Source of the DNA: Allobosea sp.
GTDB taxonomy: Bacteria > Pseudomonadota > Alphaproteobacteria > Rhizobiales > Beijerinckiaceae
DNA: 64,000 nt
NCBI RefSeq assembly: GCF_030695125.1
Contig: NZ_JAUYTP010000022.1
Coordinates: 62,001 to 126,000 of the forward strand
Direction: 5' to 3'
Below the pieces are notes generated by a model. That model had not been told where the DNA came from. It ran no database searches and was given only the letters and a program-made list of their open reading frames with translations. Below are positions 5,987-44,798 of the stretch, piece by piece. Position 1 is the stretch's first letter, and each line of letters opens with the position of its first letter. Made by a program: the position numbers and the translations under genes.

Positions 5987-7171
5987 TCACAGCGTAAACC
6001 CGCGCAGCCGCTCGCTCAGCGCGCCGATCCGGTCGGCGGCGACATTGGCGATGGCGATGCGCAAATGCCGCTCCTGGCCCGGGCCGAAATAGGGGCCGGG
6101 CAAGGCGAGCACGCCGCGCTCCTGCACCAAAGCGCGCACCACATCCGCCGCCGGTACACCGGGGAAGGGGTGCGCGACATAGGCGAAATAGGCGCCGGCC
6201 GCGAGCACGCGCCAGTCATTGAGCGGGGCCATCGCCTCGCGGAACAGCGCGGCGCGGGCGTTGATCTCGGCCCGGTTGGCCTCGCGCCAGTCGCGGATGC
6301 CGTCGATGCCCCAGGTCACGGCCGTCTGGCCGGCCCGCACCGGACTGATCTGGACACAGTCGAGCACCTTGGCGATCTCGGCCATCACGGCTTCGCCGGC
6401 CGTGATCGCGCCCAGCCGCCAGCCCGGCACAGCATAGGCCTTGGAGAAGCTGTAGAGGCCGATGACGGAGTCCTGCCAGGGCGTTGCGGCGAAGACCTCA
6501 TGCGGGGCCGCAGCGCCGGCAGGCAGGAAATCACGATAGGTCTCGTCGAGCACCAGCCAGAGACCGCGCCGCGCGCACAGCTCCGCGAAGGCGGCGATGG
6601 TGGCGGGCGGATAGATCGCGCCCGTCGGATTGTTGGGTGTCACCAGCACGATGGCGCGCGTGCCGGTGTCGATCAGCGCCTCCGCCGCGGCGACATCGGG
6701 CACGAAGCCGGCCGCCGGATCGCAGGGCAGCGGCCGTGCCTCGATGCCGAGCATGCGCAGCGTCATCTCGTGGTTGAAGTACCAGGGCGCCGGCAGCAGC
6801 ACGTTCTGGCCAGCCCGCGCCACTGCCATCATCGTCATGACGAAGGCCTGGTTGCAGCCCGAGGTGATCGCGACCTCGCCCGCCTTGAAGGGGGCACCGT
6901 AGACCCGGGCGATTTCGGCCGCATAGGCCTCGCGCAGGGGCATGTCGCCGGTGATCGGGCCGTAGCGCGTGGCGTCGGGAGAGGCGGCGGCCTGCGCCAG
7001 CCGCTCCAGCAGCGCGGCTGGCGGGGGCGAGCCCGGCACGGCCTGCGAGAGGTCAACCAGCGGGCCGCTGCGCCCGTCATAGGCGCGCGCCCAGGCTTGC
7101 GCCTGCGGGATCGGCGGCGTGGCGGTGTCGAGGAGATCGGGGTTCAGGGCGGCGTGAGACGGGGCAAGCAT
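5987..7171 (-). CDS. PLP-dependent aminotransferase (class I/II)
   Basis: VTPNNPTGAIYPP, SFSKAYAVPGWRLG. Confidence 0.9.
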   Translation of the reverse strand: MLAPSHAALNPDLLDTATPPIPQAQAWARAYDGRSGPLVDLSQAVPGSPPPAALLERLAQAAASPDATRYGPITGDMPLREAYAAEIARVYGAPFKAGEVAITSGCNQAFVMTMMAVARAGQNVLLPAPWYFNHEMTLRMLGIEARPLPCDPAAGFVPDVAAAEALIDTGTRAIVLVTPNNPTGAIYPPATIAAFAELCARRGLWLVLDETYRDFLPAGAAAPHEVFAATPWQDSVIGLYSFSKAYAVPGWRLGAITAGEAVMAEIAKVLDCVQISPVRAGQTAVTWGIDGIRDWREANRAEINARAALFREAMAPLNDWRVLAAGAYFAYVAHPFPGVPAADVVRALVQERGVLALPGPYFGPGQERHLRIAIANVAADRIGALSERLRGFTL

Positions 7172-7253
7172 GGTGCGCAGCTTTGGGACGCGGGTGGGCC
7201 TTCGTCAATCGGCGCGGGCAAGCTCCTCACAGCACAGCGCCCTATCCCGCAAG

Positions 7254-7368
7254 CCTCATCCTGAGGAGCGATCTGAAAGATCGCGTCTCGAAGGATCGTT
7301 CAGGAGGTGCCGGCGCCAGGCTGGAGCATCCTTCGAGACGCCGCGTATCGCGGCTCTTCAGGATGAGG
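7254..7368. repeat. intergenic inverted repeat, family A
   Basis: cctcatcctgaggagc...tctcgaaggat...ggagcatccttcgagacg...ttcaggatgagg. Confidence 0.75.
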
Positions 7369-8195: not shown

Positions 8196-8310
8196 AGCCC
8201 CTGCGACGTTTGCGACCGGACGCCGCAAGAGGGCTTGAGGCTGCGGCAAAACAGGCTATGGGGCAGGGCGCCCGCCGCCCTCTTGTCCGCATCCCCGTCG
8301 AAGGCTAGCC

Positions 8311-8766
8311 ATGTCCAGCGAGAAAACCATTCCGCCCGCCGCTCTGGCGCTCGGTGTCGCCGGCATCATCCCGTTCCTGGCCTGCACCGTCGGAATCCTG
8401 GCCGGGCTGACGCTGCCGGTGCTCGGCGGCGGTGGCCGGCTGACGCAGGCCCTGATCGTCTACGGCGTCGCGATCCTGTCCTTCCTCGGGGGCGTGCGCT
8501 GGGGGATCGCGATCGGCTATGAGAACGAGGCCGTGCAGCGGCGGGATTTCATCATCGCGGTGGTGCCGGCCCTGATCGGCTGGGGCGCCACGCTGCTCGC
8601 GCCCGTCGGCGCGCTATGGACCCTTTGCGCGGCCTTCATCCTGCTCGGCCTGCTGGATTTCGGCCTCTACTGCCGCGATGTCGCGCCCGAATGGTATGGC
8701 CGGCTGCGACTGGGCCTGTCGGGCGCGGTCGCCGTGCTCCTGGGCGTGGCTGCGGCTGCGGCCTGA
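8311..8766 (+). CDS. DUF3429-like membrane protein
   Basis: LGVAGIIPFLACT...YGVAILSFLGGVRWGIAI. Confidence 0.75.
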   Translation: MSSEKTIPPAALALGVAGIIPFLACTVGILAGLTLPVLGGGGRLTQALIVYGVAILSFLGGVRWGIAIGYENEAVQRRDFIIAVVPALIGWGATLLAPVGALWTLCAAFILLGLLDFGLYCRDVAPEWYGRLRLGLSGAVAVLLGVAAAAA

Positions 8767-8788
8767 CGGGTCCGTCGCCGAAAGGCCG

Positions 8789-9856
8789 TCACGGGTTCGC
8801 CTGCGAGGCCTGTTTCTCCAGTTCGGCCCTGATGGTCGCGGTCGGCTCGCCGCGCGCCATCATCGCGGCCGCACGCTGGCCGTGGCGCGCGAGCCCGTGC
8901 CGCGTCTTGTCGGCGGCCGTCATCAGCACATGCAGTGGTTCGAAGCCTGTTGCCTGCAGCCGTCGCACATAGGCCAGCTGGCTTTCATAGGGAACGATCC
9001 GATCCTCGCGATCCGACAGAACGACGATCGACGGCCTGGGCTGCGTGGGGATGCGCCCGACATGGTCGATCGGATCGTGAAGGGCCTGGATGTTGGTGCT
9101 TTGAACGGTGCGCCGCTTGTCCCAGTGTCGCGTGACCTCACGGACGGACAGCAAGGCCGACGACAGCGCCGCGGCTGAAATGTCGTGGCGCCGGTTCAAG
9201 AGGGCCGCCGCGATCTGCCCGCCGCCGGACTGACCCGCCAGAATGAAACGCGAGACACCATAGCGATTCTTGATCGCGTTGAGCGCGCGGTCCATCAGCA
9301 TCACCTCACGCAACTCGCGGCGCGCGTTGTGGTCGCCCGACGATCCGTACATGCCCGGACGCGCCAGGAAGATGGTGGGACGCCCCGCCTCCCGGGACCA
9401 TCGCGCCATGTCGCGCTGGAGCCCATCGGGCGAGCGCCGCTCATAGCCGGGCGCGATGAAGCGAACGGCCGTTCTCGTCTTCAGCATCACGTCGCCGCTG
9501 AAATAGACCAGGACCACCGGATTTTCGGCTGAGTTCAACCCGTGCGAATAGGCGCGGATGCAATCGCCTTTGCCGTCGAATTCGACCCAGAAGCCGTCAG
9601 GCACGGTCAAACACTGGGCCGGTGAGCTGCGCGAGCCATGCAGCGCTTCGTAAGGATCGAACGGTTCTCCGGCACGCGGGATCGCGAGCTCTCTGGGCGT
9701 GGTCGGCGCCCCCGCCGGGAGTTCCAGCCTCTGCGCCAGAGCTGCCTGGGCCTGCCCGACCATCAAAACGGCGATGGCCCACCTTGATAGCCGCTGCATG
9801 TGCCAGCCCGACCTTCCAGTCACCGGCTCCAGCCGGCCGTTCAAACGCATCGGCAC
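8789..9856 (-). CDS. secreted alpha/beta-hydrolase
   Basis: signal peptide; nucleophile motif GQSGGG. Confidence 0.7.
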   Translation of the reverse strand: MPMRLNGRLEPVTGRSGWHMQRLSRWAIAVLMVGQAQAALAQRLELPAGAPTTPRELAIPRAGEPFDPYEALHGSRSSPAQCLTVPDGFWVEFDGKGDCIRAYSHGLNSAENPVVLVYFSGDVMLKTRTAVRFIAPGYERRSPDGLQRDMARWSREAGRPTIFLARPGMYGSSGDHNARRELREVMLMDRALNAIKNRYGVSRFILAGQSGGGQIAAALLNRRHDISAAALSSALLSVREVTRHWDKRRTVQSTNIQALHDPIDHVGRIPTQPRPSIVVLSDREDRIVPYESQLAYVRRLQATGFEPLHVLMTAADKTRHGLARHGQRAAAMMARGEPTATIRAELEKQASQANP

Positions 9857-38687: not shown

Positions 38688-39205
38688 CGTCTCCGGGCCG
38701 CGCTTATCGGGTCGAAGGCCGGCCATCGCCGCGAGCCCTTTCGACGCCAGTGCCCCTCATCGGGTTGTCGCGTCTATTTGGGCATGGGACGACGGCGTTT
38801 GCCGACGACCGTTCCAGCGAGCTCCTCGCACAGGGGCCGTAGTACCCCCAGGGCGGTGCCCCGAAACCTCCCGGGACTGGCGTGTGAAACCAGCCGCAGG
38901 CGCCGACCCTTCACCCAGCCACTGGCACACCTCCGGTTGGCCGCCCCGTTTGGGTGATGGGCGAGGGGAGTATGGGGGATGCGGGGAGGGCGGGGATAAG
39001 GTTGCGTGGGAACCGCGATGAGATTGGCACCGCATGTGACCAGTCACAGTTGACAGGGACCATGTTGCTTCAGTCTGCGTCTGCCATAGTACTCAAAAGC
39101 GAGCGTGGTCGATAATCAGCCAATTCAAAAAATGAATATCAATATTATTACAATAAAACGTATACACGTGAACAAATGATTTAGTTTTTTGATATTATTG
39201 TTTTA

Positions 39206-39853
39206 TTACCAGCCGAGAAGCATATCTGGCCTTAATGGACCAATAAAAGAGCTGCGCGATACTTTATCTGTCGCCGCTAAGGAATCGTATGACCTGCATA
39301 TAGCAAAATACGACCTCATAAATATTGGGCTATCTCGACTATTATGCATGATCAGCCCCCCTGTGCCGGCCCAATTTGGGTGGACCGCCTCGCATAGAAC
39401 GTTATAGATGTCAGATGCTTCGGGCATATGCTTGTCTAGAAACCTGATTCCATCAGCGACATGTGGCGATTTTATTCCTAGCTCTGTCTCGAATTCTCGA
39501 GATGCAAAGAAATGTTTTCTTAAAGTATTGCGAAATTTCTCTTTATCATTGGCGTTTCGCGCTCTAATCATCTTGTCGATAAAATCAATAAACGTCCCTG
39601 CTGTTTCCAGCAAGCCTCTTGCTGTCATACTTGCCGTTATCATGCGGCCACGTTCTAAACTTTCAATGCAATCTTCAGACAGCTCCAAAAGTCTGTTTAC
39701 TATAGATATAGAGTATTCCCTAATCGTTATACCGGAGGCTGAATGCTTATAAAATAATTTGTTAAGATCGAATCCCAGTTGGCGCACAATATCGATTTCA
39801 TGCAGCAGTTTGATTTTCATACTGTTTTCATTTAGATGATTTTGGTCAAACAA
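39206..39853 (-). CDS. helical protein, possible HEPN/DUF5677-like
   Basis: AT-rich 215-aa ORF overlapping the upstream gene by 8 bp; RNTLRKH (Rx5H) and YNVLCEAVHPNWAG motifs. Confidence 0.65.
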   Translation of the reverse strand: MFDQNHLNENSMKIKLLHEIDIVRQLGFDLNKLFYKHSASGITIREYSISIVNRLLELSEDCIESLERGRMITASMTARGLLETAGTFIDFIDKMIRARNANDKEKFRNTLRKHFFASREFETELGIKSPHVADGIRFLDKHMPEASDIYNVLCEAVHPNWAGTGGLIMHNSRDSPIFMRSYFAICRSYDSLAATDKVSRSSFIGPLRPDMLLGW

Positions 39854-41546
39854 TTTTGCTATCCCTATAAATCGCTATAAGCATATTATATGAAGCGACA
39901 TTACGCGCCGCCTTTAGTGTTGATCCGAATCCAGTCGTTGTATTATTTTTGTATTTGCAGACGACTTTGTGGTTTGGAGCATGCATGTTTTTGGTATCGG
40001 GATACGTCAAGAAATCAGGCTTTGCTCGGTCAGAAAATGATTGAGTAAATTCTTGAAGGATTTGAGAGTATGGAGCTTTATCATTAAAACGTGCGTTGAT
40101 ATCAATAAACGTCTCGATCTGCCCTGCAGATCTATCTCCAAGATCAAATTTTTTATTATAGTTTTCGAGGCTACTTTCAAAAATTGACTTTAGAAATTGA
40201 AAATTTTCTTCTGTTGAAACCACTGAATTAGCGTACATTAAACTCTGTATTATGTCGTGTAATTGTGCTTTGCTAATTTCATGATGTTTAATAAAAATTT
40301 GTTTCTCTCCAGCTTCTACGCAGTAAATCTCTCTGAGTTTATCTGTAGCGACCGGTACTCTGATGTTGTTGGGTGCGTTGCTTTGACAGGATAGGGCTAT
40401 TGCTGCTATAAATTGACTGCCAACTAATGCTGCGGTGCCGCTACAATGCGTACACGCGCCATTCTGATCATAGGTTGATGTCGTTGAGAAACAAGAAATT
40501 GTATCTTTATCGCTGACGTTCCATCGCAACTTATGGGTGTTAATCCAGGAACGCGCCTGCTTGACTTGTCTATCAGAGGGAACCCAACGTAATGCTGTAC
40601 AGCGTGTTTTGTTATAGTATTCGTTTATTCGTTTTTCTTGATACTTCCTAAATTGTGGCTGATTTAGGTCTTCCAGTTTGGATAGTATGGATTCCGCTAC
40701 AAGGACCGTTGCGGCTCGCTTTGAGCTACCAACTTCTTGTATCTCGCCGACCCCTGGGATCGATGTAGAAGCTTCAAATGCTGGGTCGTGCTCGGGGCGG
40801 CCCTCAATCTTTGTGACGACGTATGATGGTGTATTTCCAAAACAATCCTGAGTATATTCCTGCAAAAAAGTCTTTGGATCTCGTATAATTAAAATATCGT
40901 ACTCATATTTTGCTAAAGTGCCTACTGGATCGGCAGTGCGAATTATAAAATCCTCAATATCCGAGAAACTTGAACCGTTTATGTGTAGCGAATGAATAGT
41001 TTCGAAATATGCTCGAGAAAGATCTGACTCCGAGAATATATGATTTTGATCTGTGCAAATATTACCTAGATCGGATTTTTGCCAAACAGTTGCAATAAAA
41101 TCCAAGCGCCCAAGGTGGTTGCAGGCAAACGATCCGTGTTCTCTGCCTCTCGATAAAAAGAAACCCGATCGTATAAGTATTCTGAGAGTTAAGTAATTAT
41201 AGATCGACTTACCGGCCGAAGCGGTAGTTGAACTTATATTTTGATAGAAATGAGAAAATTCACTATCTATTTGCCCAGCTTCGTGTCCAATCAAAGAACT
41301 GTGTCGTATAGAATATATAAATTCATATTTTTTTGGTGCATTTATATAATGATTGACGCGTTGCGAAAAATAATCGCAGTAAATTTTGTGAGATTCAATC
41401 ATACTTACTATCGCAGCTAGTCGATTCTCCATCGCCGTGATCGACGCATCAAAACGCTCGATCTCGGAGGTATATATATCCCGAACGCGCGCTGACATTT
41501 CGGCGAGAACATGATTTAGCCGAAGTGTTGATAGTTCAAGGCTCAT
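39846..41546 (-). CDS. candidate tandem degenerate RNase III-like/dsRBD protein
   Basis: 566 aa; aa 223-293 resembles the E. coli RNase III dsRBD; aa 490-562 second dsRBD; aa 68-204 and 345-465 align by eye with RNase III domain; manual alignment only. Confidence 0.7.
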   Translation of the reverse strand: MSLELSTLRLNHVLAEMSARVRDIYTSEIERFDASITAMENRLAAIVSMIESHKIYCDYFSQRVNHYINAPKKYEFIYSIRHSSLIGHEAGQIDSEFSHFYQNISSTTASAGKSIYNYLTLRILIRSGFFLSRGREHGSFACNHLGRLDFIATVWQKSDLGNICTDQNHIFSESDLSRAYFETIHSLHINGSSFSDIEDFIIRTADPVGTLAKYEYDILIIRDPKTFLQEYTQDCFGNTPSYVVTKIEGRPEHDPAFEASTSIPGVGEIQEVGSSKRAATVLVAESILSKLEDLNQPQFRKYQEKRINEYYNKTRCTALRWVPSDRQVKQARSWINTHKLRWNVSDKDTISCFSTTSTYDQNGACTHCSGTAALVGSQFIAAIALSCQSNAPNNIRVPVATDKLREIYCVEAGEKQIFIKHHEISKAQLHDIIQSLMYANSVVSTEENFQFLKSIFESSLENYNKKFDLGDRSAGQIETFIDINARFNDKAPYSQILQEFTQSFSDRAKPDFLTYPDTKNMHAPNHKVVCKYKNNTTTGFGSTLKAARNVASYNMLIAIYRDSKIV

Positions 41547-41713
41547 GATTGATCAACGCATCTTTGACACGCGCAGATTACAGCAGGCAGGCGGTGCCAA
41601 TGCAAGCGATGATCAAAAAACTTTCAATTTGATGACGATTCGGGGTCGCCAAGGTCTTTTGCGGTACGCTGCCCATTGTTCGGAGTTCGTCGCCGTGGCG
41701 TGCCTCCCGAGCC

Positions 41714-41740
41714 GCAGGATTGGTGCAGGATTGGTGCAGG
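41714..41740. repeat. 11-bp tandem repeat, about 2.4 copies
   Basis: gcaggattggt gcaggattggt gcagg. Confidence 0.8.
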
Positions 41741-41780
41741 CGCTACCGTGGGAGACGGGTGAGGAATTGCGCCCGAACCG

Positions 41781-44798
<3,018 letters not shown>

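Follow-up and report, generated by a model that had tools for sequence, protein, structure and literature searches.

Animal antiviral immunity depends centrally on the sensing of viral double-stranded RNA (dsRNA). PKR, an animal dsRNA-activated kinase, has two dsRNA-binding domains (dsRBDs) that act as a sensor linked to the effector. In bacteria, RNase III is the main known carrier of dsRBDs, and the mitoribosomal RNase III-like protein mL44 (MRPL44) is regarded as inactive. In cyanobacteria, a HEPN domain fused to RNase III and a dsRBD has been proposed to form a two-headed RNase (PMC3710099). Among bacterial defence genes, the anti-phage activity of PD-Lambda-2 and PD-Lambda-5 has been established by experiment (PMC9519451). 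Here, we describe a two-gene island located downstream of uvrA in an Allobosea genome, within a contig stretch of 64,000 nucleotides analysed as a whole (hereafter the window), in which a degenerate RNase III-like protein with two dsRBDs is encoded together with a small partner (Table 1).

Table 1. Features of the island and its flank (positions in the window)
Feature	Position	Strand	Residues	Description
AT-rich island	39006..41780	no strand		41.7% GC; fills the variable site downstream of uvrA
Gene 1 (P0001)	39846..41546	minus	566 aa	degenerate RNase III-like domain and two dsRBDs
Long N-terminal helix, perhaps a coiled coil	41346..41546	minus	aa 1-67	helix in both AlphaFold models, low confidence for gene 1
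Degenerate RNase III-like domain	40881..41345	minus	aa 68-222	profile comparison; TIGR02191 match of the homologue
dsRBD-1	40668..40880	minus	aa 223-293	Pfam PF00035; solved RNase III C-termini
Middle helical region	40071..40667	minus	aa 294-492	site proposed for a second RNase III-like domain, which is not demonstrated
dsRBD-2	39861..40070	minus	aa 493-562	Pfam best stretch 495-556
Gene 2 (P0002)	39206..39853	minus	215 aa	DUF5677-like partner
uvrA	41781..44798	minus		conserved hotspot flank; identified from sequence

Results

Two overlapping genes in an AT-rich island

The preliminary description of this DNA had reported an open reading frame of 566 codons at 39846-41546 in an AT-rich island. 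Its coordinates and length were correct, the strand, left unstated, is the minus strand, and the island is real, as judged from the contrast between the GC content of gene 1 (39.9%) and that of the remainder of the window (68.7%). The longest open frame found in shuffles of the island (n = 300) was 189 codons, against 566 for gene 1. Gene 1 overlaps by 8 nt with gene 2, which starts with a TTG inside the overlap, an ATG being present at 39820. Both frames are intact, and an ordinary RNase III gene is present elsewhere in the same genome. Missed in that description were the strand, the partner gene overlapping the first, the operon conserved in Leisingera and the defence-hotspot context, and it is these that point towards function.

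Close to both edges of the island (39023-39036 and 41588-41601) lie the arms of a 14-nt inverted repeat (93%), 11 nt of which form an exact core. The chance expectation for 3 kb is estimated at about 0.8 such pairs, so chance may account for the repeat; it is also absent from the post-uvrA loci of the relatives.

A variable site downstream of uvrA

The region following uvrA was compared in ten genomes of the same genus, in which uvrA itself shows 90 to 98% DNA identity. In nine of these genomes, homology to the window reaches the uvrA stop codon, give or take a few bases, before it ends; in the tenth (G001) it breaks off ~27 bases short of that codon. In six, it resumes at 38971-39005. Eight of the ten relatives carry a different AT-rich cargo at this site, including PD-Lambda-5 in one relative (E 3.6e-74), PD-Lambda-2 B and C (3.7e-67 and 3.4e-21), an OLD/AriA-like ATPase (1e-20), a NACHT protein, CHAT and HARE-HTH proteins, a SocA/Panacea antitoxin with a partner, and two uncharacterised sets. 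Since related strains carry anti-phage genes at the same spot, the two-gene island is probably an undescribed defence module, the location being correlative as defence evidence. We know of no report of a variable post-uvrA hotspot in this genus.

Several cargoes deserve mention in their own right. In G001, a partial duplicate of the uvrA 3' end lies beside the PD-Lambda-5 cargo (L058:7396-7571 and 8258-9130), a pattern compatible with an element having inserted at the uvrA end and brought its own copy of that end. Relative G009 encodes a 509-aa orphan (L051:946-2475) with a nuclease-looking ECKAKK stretch, and G010 encodes two orphans of 192 and 204 aa (L052:5320-5898 and 6654-7268); neither the former nor the latter two matched any Pfam or PADLOC model. 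In G004, the SocA/Panacea antitoxin gene is followed by an unmatched 236-aa gene (L060:1489-2717), the two probably forming a toxin-antitoxin (TA) pair.

A second member of the pair in Leisingera

Searching with gene 2 led to the same two-gene operon in Leisingera sp. ANG1, with identities of 24% for gene 1 and 36% for gene 2. This closest relative found for gene 2 (36% over 110 aa) lies directly behind the gene for a 594-aa protein organised like gene 1; BLASTP aligned this protein with gene 1 across the first half (E 2e-21) and the last dsRBD (4e-8). Conservation of the operon therefore spans two orders. Beyond this, the pair is very rare: a full-length gene 1 relative was found in none of 100 relatives, no full-length gene 1 relative was found beyond its own genome in samples of 298 genomes of the order and 399 of the phylum, and Leisingera was the only genome with one among 395 of its own order (1,193 genome draws overall, some repeated). 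None of 384 other genomes of the class contained gene 2. The Leisingera operon aside, searches of both genes against plasmids, viral contigs and GTDB contigs, and of gene 1 against phages, returned RNase III-type matches or nothing, which leaves two known members of the module, the host and Leisingera.

The Leisingera pair is also AT-rich, at 46 to 47% GC in surroundings of about 56 to 65%. At a distance of ~2 kb is a set of three genes, the last of which encodes a DndH-like protein (1.3e-61); a type II methylase and a nicking endonuclease follow, and an integrase lies further on. Two genomes thus independently place the pair among defence genes. The three-gene set itself (L061:6856-15952; 668, 487, and 1,870 aa) has SspF-like and DndH-like ends and an unmatched middle gene, and may represent variant Dnd restriction genes.

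Gene 1 keeps two dsRBDs and a degenerate RNase III-like domain

Pfam PF00035 (dsrm) matched gene 1 over two stretches, above its curated cutoff (E 1.5e-11, 45.1 bits, cutoff 23), and phmmer matched dsRBD-1 to the C-termini of solved RNase III structures. These results, which include the dsrm profile check that had been suggested, confirm the likening by eye of residues 223-293 to the E. coli RNase III C-terminus and the second dsRBD, proposed at 490-562 and found at ~493-560. A seadornavirus dsRNA-binding match of gene 1 starts at dsRBD-1 and was taken to reflect resemblance between dsRBDs and nothing more.

The RNase III-like domain proposed at residues 68-204 is supported as a fold ahead of dsRBD-1 and fails as an active site. 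The first domain of gene 1 had no library model match of its own, and HMMER with a catalytic-only RNase III profile found no significant match. When a two-sequence profile of gene 1 and its homologue (aa 53-222, dsRBD removed) was compared by hhalign with the RNase III catalytic profile, it scored 23.2 versus 12.4 ± 2.3 for column shuffles (maximum, 18.9), none of the 100 shuffles scoring as high. Single sequences gave a weaker signal than this profile for gene 1, with 3 of 127 decoys as high, and for the Leisingera homologue 2 of 127 decoys were as high locally and 0 of 127 globally. The TIGR02191 match of the homologue covers profile positions 93-216 and thus includes the end of the catalytic domain, at scores (43.5 for gene 1 and 59.1 for the homologue) that do not reach the cutoff of 166.25. 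Moreover, a full-length profile of the gene 1 type aligns with ordinary RNase IIIs across the catalytic C-terminus and the dsRBD. A weak Acinetobacter phage RNase III match (gene 1 aa 116-292, E 8e-3) agrees with RNase III ancestry and is not relied on. Altogether, a degenerate RNase III-like first domain ahead of dsRBD-1 is well supported.

Residues H82, S84, and G112 of gene 1 correspond to H29, S31, and G44 of E. coli RNase III and are kept in both proteins. Among the catalytic acids E38, E41, D45, E65, D114, and E117, at least five of six are lost in gene 1 and all six in the homologue. In gene 1 and the homologue, respectively, D45 is replaced by K (K113) and K, D114 by R (R178) and K, E117 by F (F181) and K, E65 by G and K, and E41 by H and G, with E38 and E41 sitting in a gapped stretch where their assignment is less certain. 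Retrieved phage-contig copies are 96 to 98% identical to the E. coli reference sequence used in this alignment. Loss of these acids makes nuclease activity of the familiar RNase III type unlikely, and the first domain should, judging from its residues, be a pseudonuclease and not a Dicer.

A second RNase III-like domain, proposed at residues 345-465, was not detected. Against the RNase III catalytic profile, 68 of 100 shuffles scored as high as the middle region in hhalign, as did 90 of 127 decoys for gene 1 and 13 of 127 for the Leisingera homologue, and in the homologue model this region has a pLDDT of ~35. With the second domain unsupported, so is the intramolecular RNase III dimer that the preliminary description had drawn from it, and the accompanying analogy with Dicer fails at the active site too. 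By eye, LMQALKTKSAG in the Leisingera copy can be set against LLQQALTHRSAS at the expected place in the middle region, a resemblance that is suggestive, and the middle region may possibly be a repeat of the first half of the gene 1 protein.

AlphaFold modelled the gene 1 protein poorly from the two-sequence alignment (pLDDT 38). The Leisingera homologue, modelled from an alignment including eight phage-contig RNase III rows, reached a pLDDT of ~65 to 80 across a large part of the first domain, and of ~90 and ~80 in dsRBD-1 and dsRBD-2, respectively. Its best PDB match was an RNase III (2nug; E 1.3e-6, ~240 columns), followed at lower ranks by mL44-containing mitoribosome entries, Dicer, and Drosha. 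Because of the RNase III rows in the alignment and a high rmsd, this model shows consistency and is not independent proof. Adding these rows bettered the model of the first domain, whereas the middle region stayed undefined.

Gene 2 encodes a DUF5677-like partner

Gene 2 matched Pfam DUF5677 at E 0.0018 and 18.8 bits, under the cutoff of 27.1, and its relatives scored 21.2 and 25.3 bits. Four partner sequences share the invariant motifs R-x3-E-T and E-x2-HPN, with R79, E83, T84, Y150, E155, H158, P159, N160, and G163 among the invariant residues, a conservation that suggests a catalytic or binding site. The canonical HEPN motif R-x4-6-H was not seen in these four sequences; an HEPN-like RNase is our leading guess for the product. 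No PADLOC model significantly matched gene 1 or gene 2, the match of gene 2 to the PD-T4-7 model being weak and non-significant (E 0.035). Two further DUF5677-like proteins from other genomes (L034:4775-5575 and L035:898-1596) carry both R-x3-E-T and E-x2-HPN without a neighbouring dsRBD gene, so the partner family is wider than the two-gene module.

Discussion

Both dsRBDs, an overlapping operon conserved in a distant genus, and a location in a defence hotspot characterize this gene pair, whose context is that of defence and for which we consider a defence role likely. The kept dsRBDs, the dead nuclease domain, the small overlapping partner, and the defence location point together to a sensor-effector pair and favour dsRNA as its signal; the trigger, the effector chemistry, and the direction of control are what we infer. 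We propose a model in which the gene 1 protein, the predicted sensor, would bind dsRNA made during infection, from overlapping phage transcripts or structured phage RNA. The gene 2 product, the predicted effector, would be kept inactive or recruited by gene 1 and would be unleashed by the binding of dsRNA to gene 1, its release leading to growth arrest or phage RNA degradation. That the pair is a horizontally acquired anti-phage (or anti-mobile-element) module, with gene 1 as dsRNA sensor and gene 2 as effector, seems to us an evenly balanced proposition. The bolder idea of a bacterial immunity of the PKR/RIG-I type, in which a dead RNase III-derived receptor with two dsRBDs recognizes viral dsRNA and switches on a separate effector, is put forward tentatively. 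A full-text search of open-licence papers found no bacterial dsRBD-based phage sensor, an absence that is weak evidence. If true, a dead RNase III acting as receptor would show a housekeeping enzyme turned into an immune sensor, and direct sensing of phage dsRNA by bacteria would become testable with two small genes. The post-uvrA hotspot of the genus also offers a usable source of undescribed defence genes.

The main rival of the sensor-effector reading, which we hold to be rather unlikely, is a TA or addiction pair in which gene 1 would neutralise a gene 2 toxin, the dsRBDs of gene 1 binding its own transcript or the toxin, with no dsRNA alarm and with defence, if any, as a by-product. Overlapping genes in a mobile island, the smaller one with invariant polar residues, would suit such a pair, as would the SocA/Panacea antitoxin gene at the same site in a related genome; however, 566 aa with two dsRBDs would make a very large antitoxin, and searches of both genes matched no TA family. 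An RNA-binding factor outside defence, e.g., a regulator, an RNA chaperone, or a ribosome-assembly factor comparable to the inactive mL44, is improbable. Dead RNase III proteins with non-nuclease roles do exist and mL44-containing entries are among the structural matches, but housekeeping factors are conserved, whereas gene 1 is very rare and AT-rich and occupies a variable hotspot of a genome with a normal RNase III gene elsewhere.

The loss of the catalytic acids from the first domain, together with a second domain unrecognisable as RNase III, makes it very improbable that gene 1 is an active Dicer-like single-chain enzyme cutting phage dsRNA, an idea that the joining of an RNase III-like domain to two dsRBDs could otherwise recommend. 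We give least credence to a non-functional remnant of a duplicated RNase III, now in decay: the catalytic region has diverged strongly, but neither frame is broken, and a protein of this layout recurs in a distant genus, paired with the same partner gene and its conserved motifs.

Compared with bacterial RNase III (TIGR02191, PF00035 dsRBD), gene 1 shares the order of an RNase III-like domain followed by a dsRBD, the residues equivalent to H29, S31, and G44, and a closely aligned dsRBD-1, but it has lost the catalytic acids, carries in addition an N-terminal helix, a middle region, and a second dsRBD, stays below the TIGR02191 cutoff, and lies in an operon with a DUF5677-like gene. Like Dicer and Drosha, both among the structural matches, it joins RNase III-like and dsRNA-binding parts in one chain, whereas its active site is lost, its second RNase III domain is not demonstrated, and no helicase or PAZ domain was matched in the profile libraries. 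With mL44 it shares the fold of an RNase III-like domain plus dsRBD; mL44, in contrast, is ribosomal, has a single dsRBD, and has no DUF5677-like partner gene. The likeness to PKR concerns the proposed sensor logic only, with no homology claimed; the pair has no kinase, and its effector would be a separate protein.

To our knowledge, no dsRBD or RNase III-like component is known in PD-T4-7 or the other TA-like Abi systems. The locus resembles these systems (PMC9519451) as a compact defence module and through the weak gene 2 match. The cyanobacterial HEPN-RNase III-dsRBD fusion (PMC3710099) links a presumed HEPN RNase to RNase III and a dsRBD in a defence setting; it is, however, one protein with an RNase III described as active, whereas the island described here encodes a separate partner, a dead domain, and two dsRBDs.
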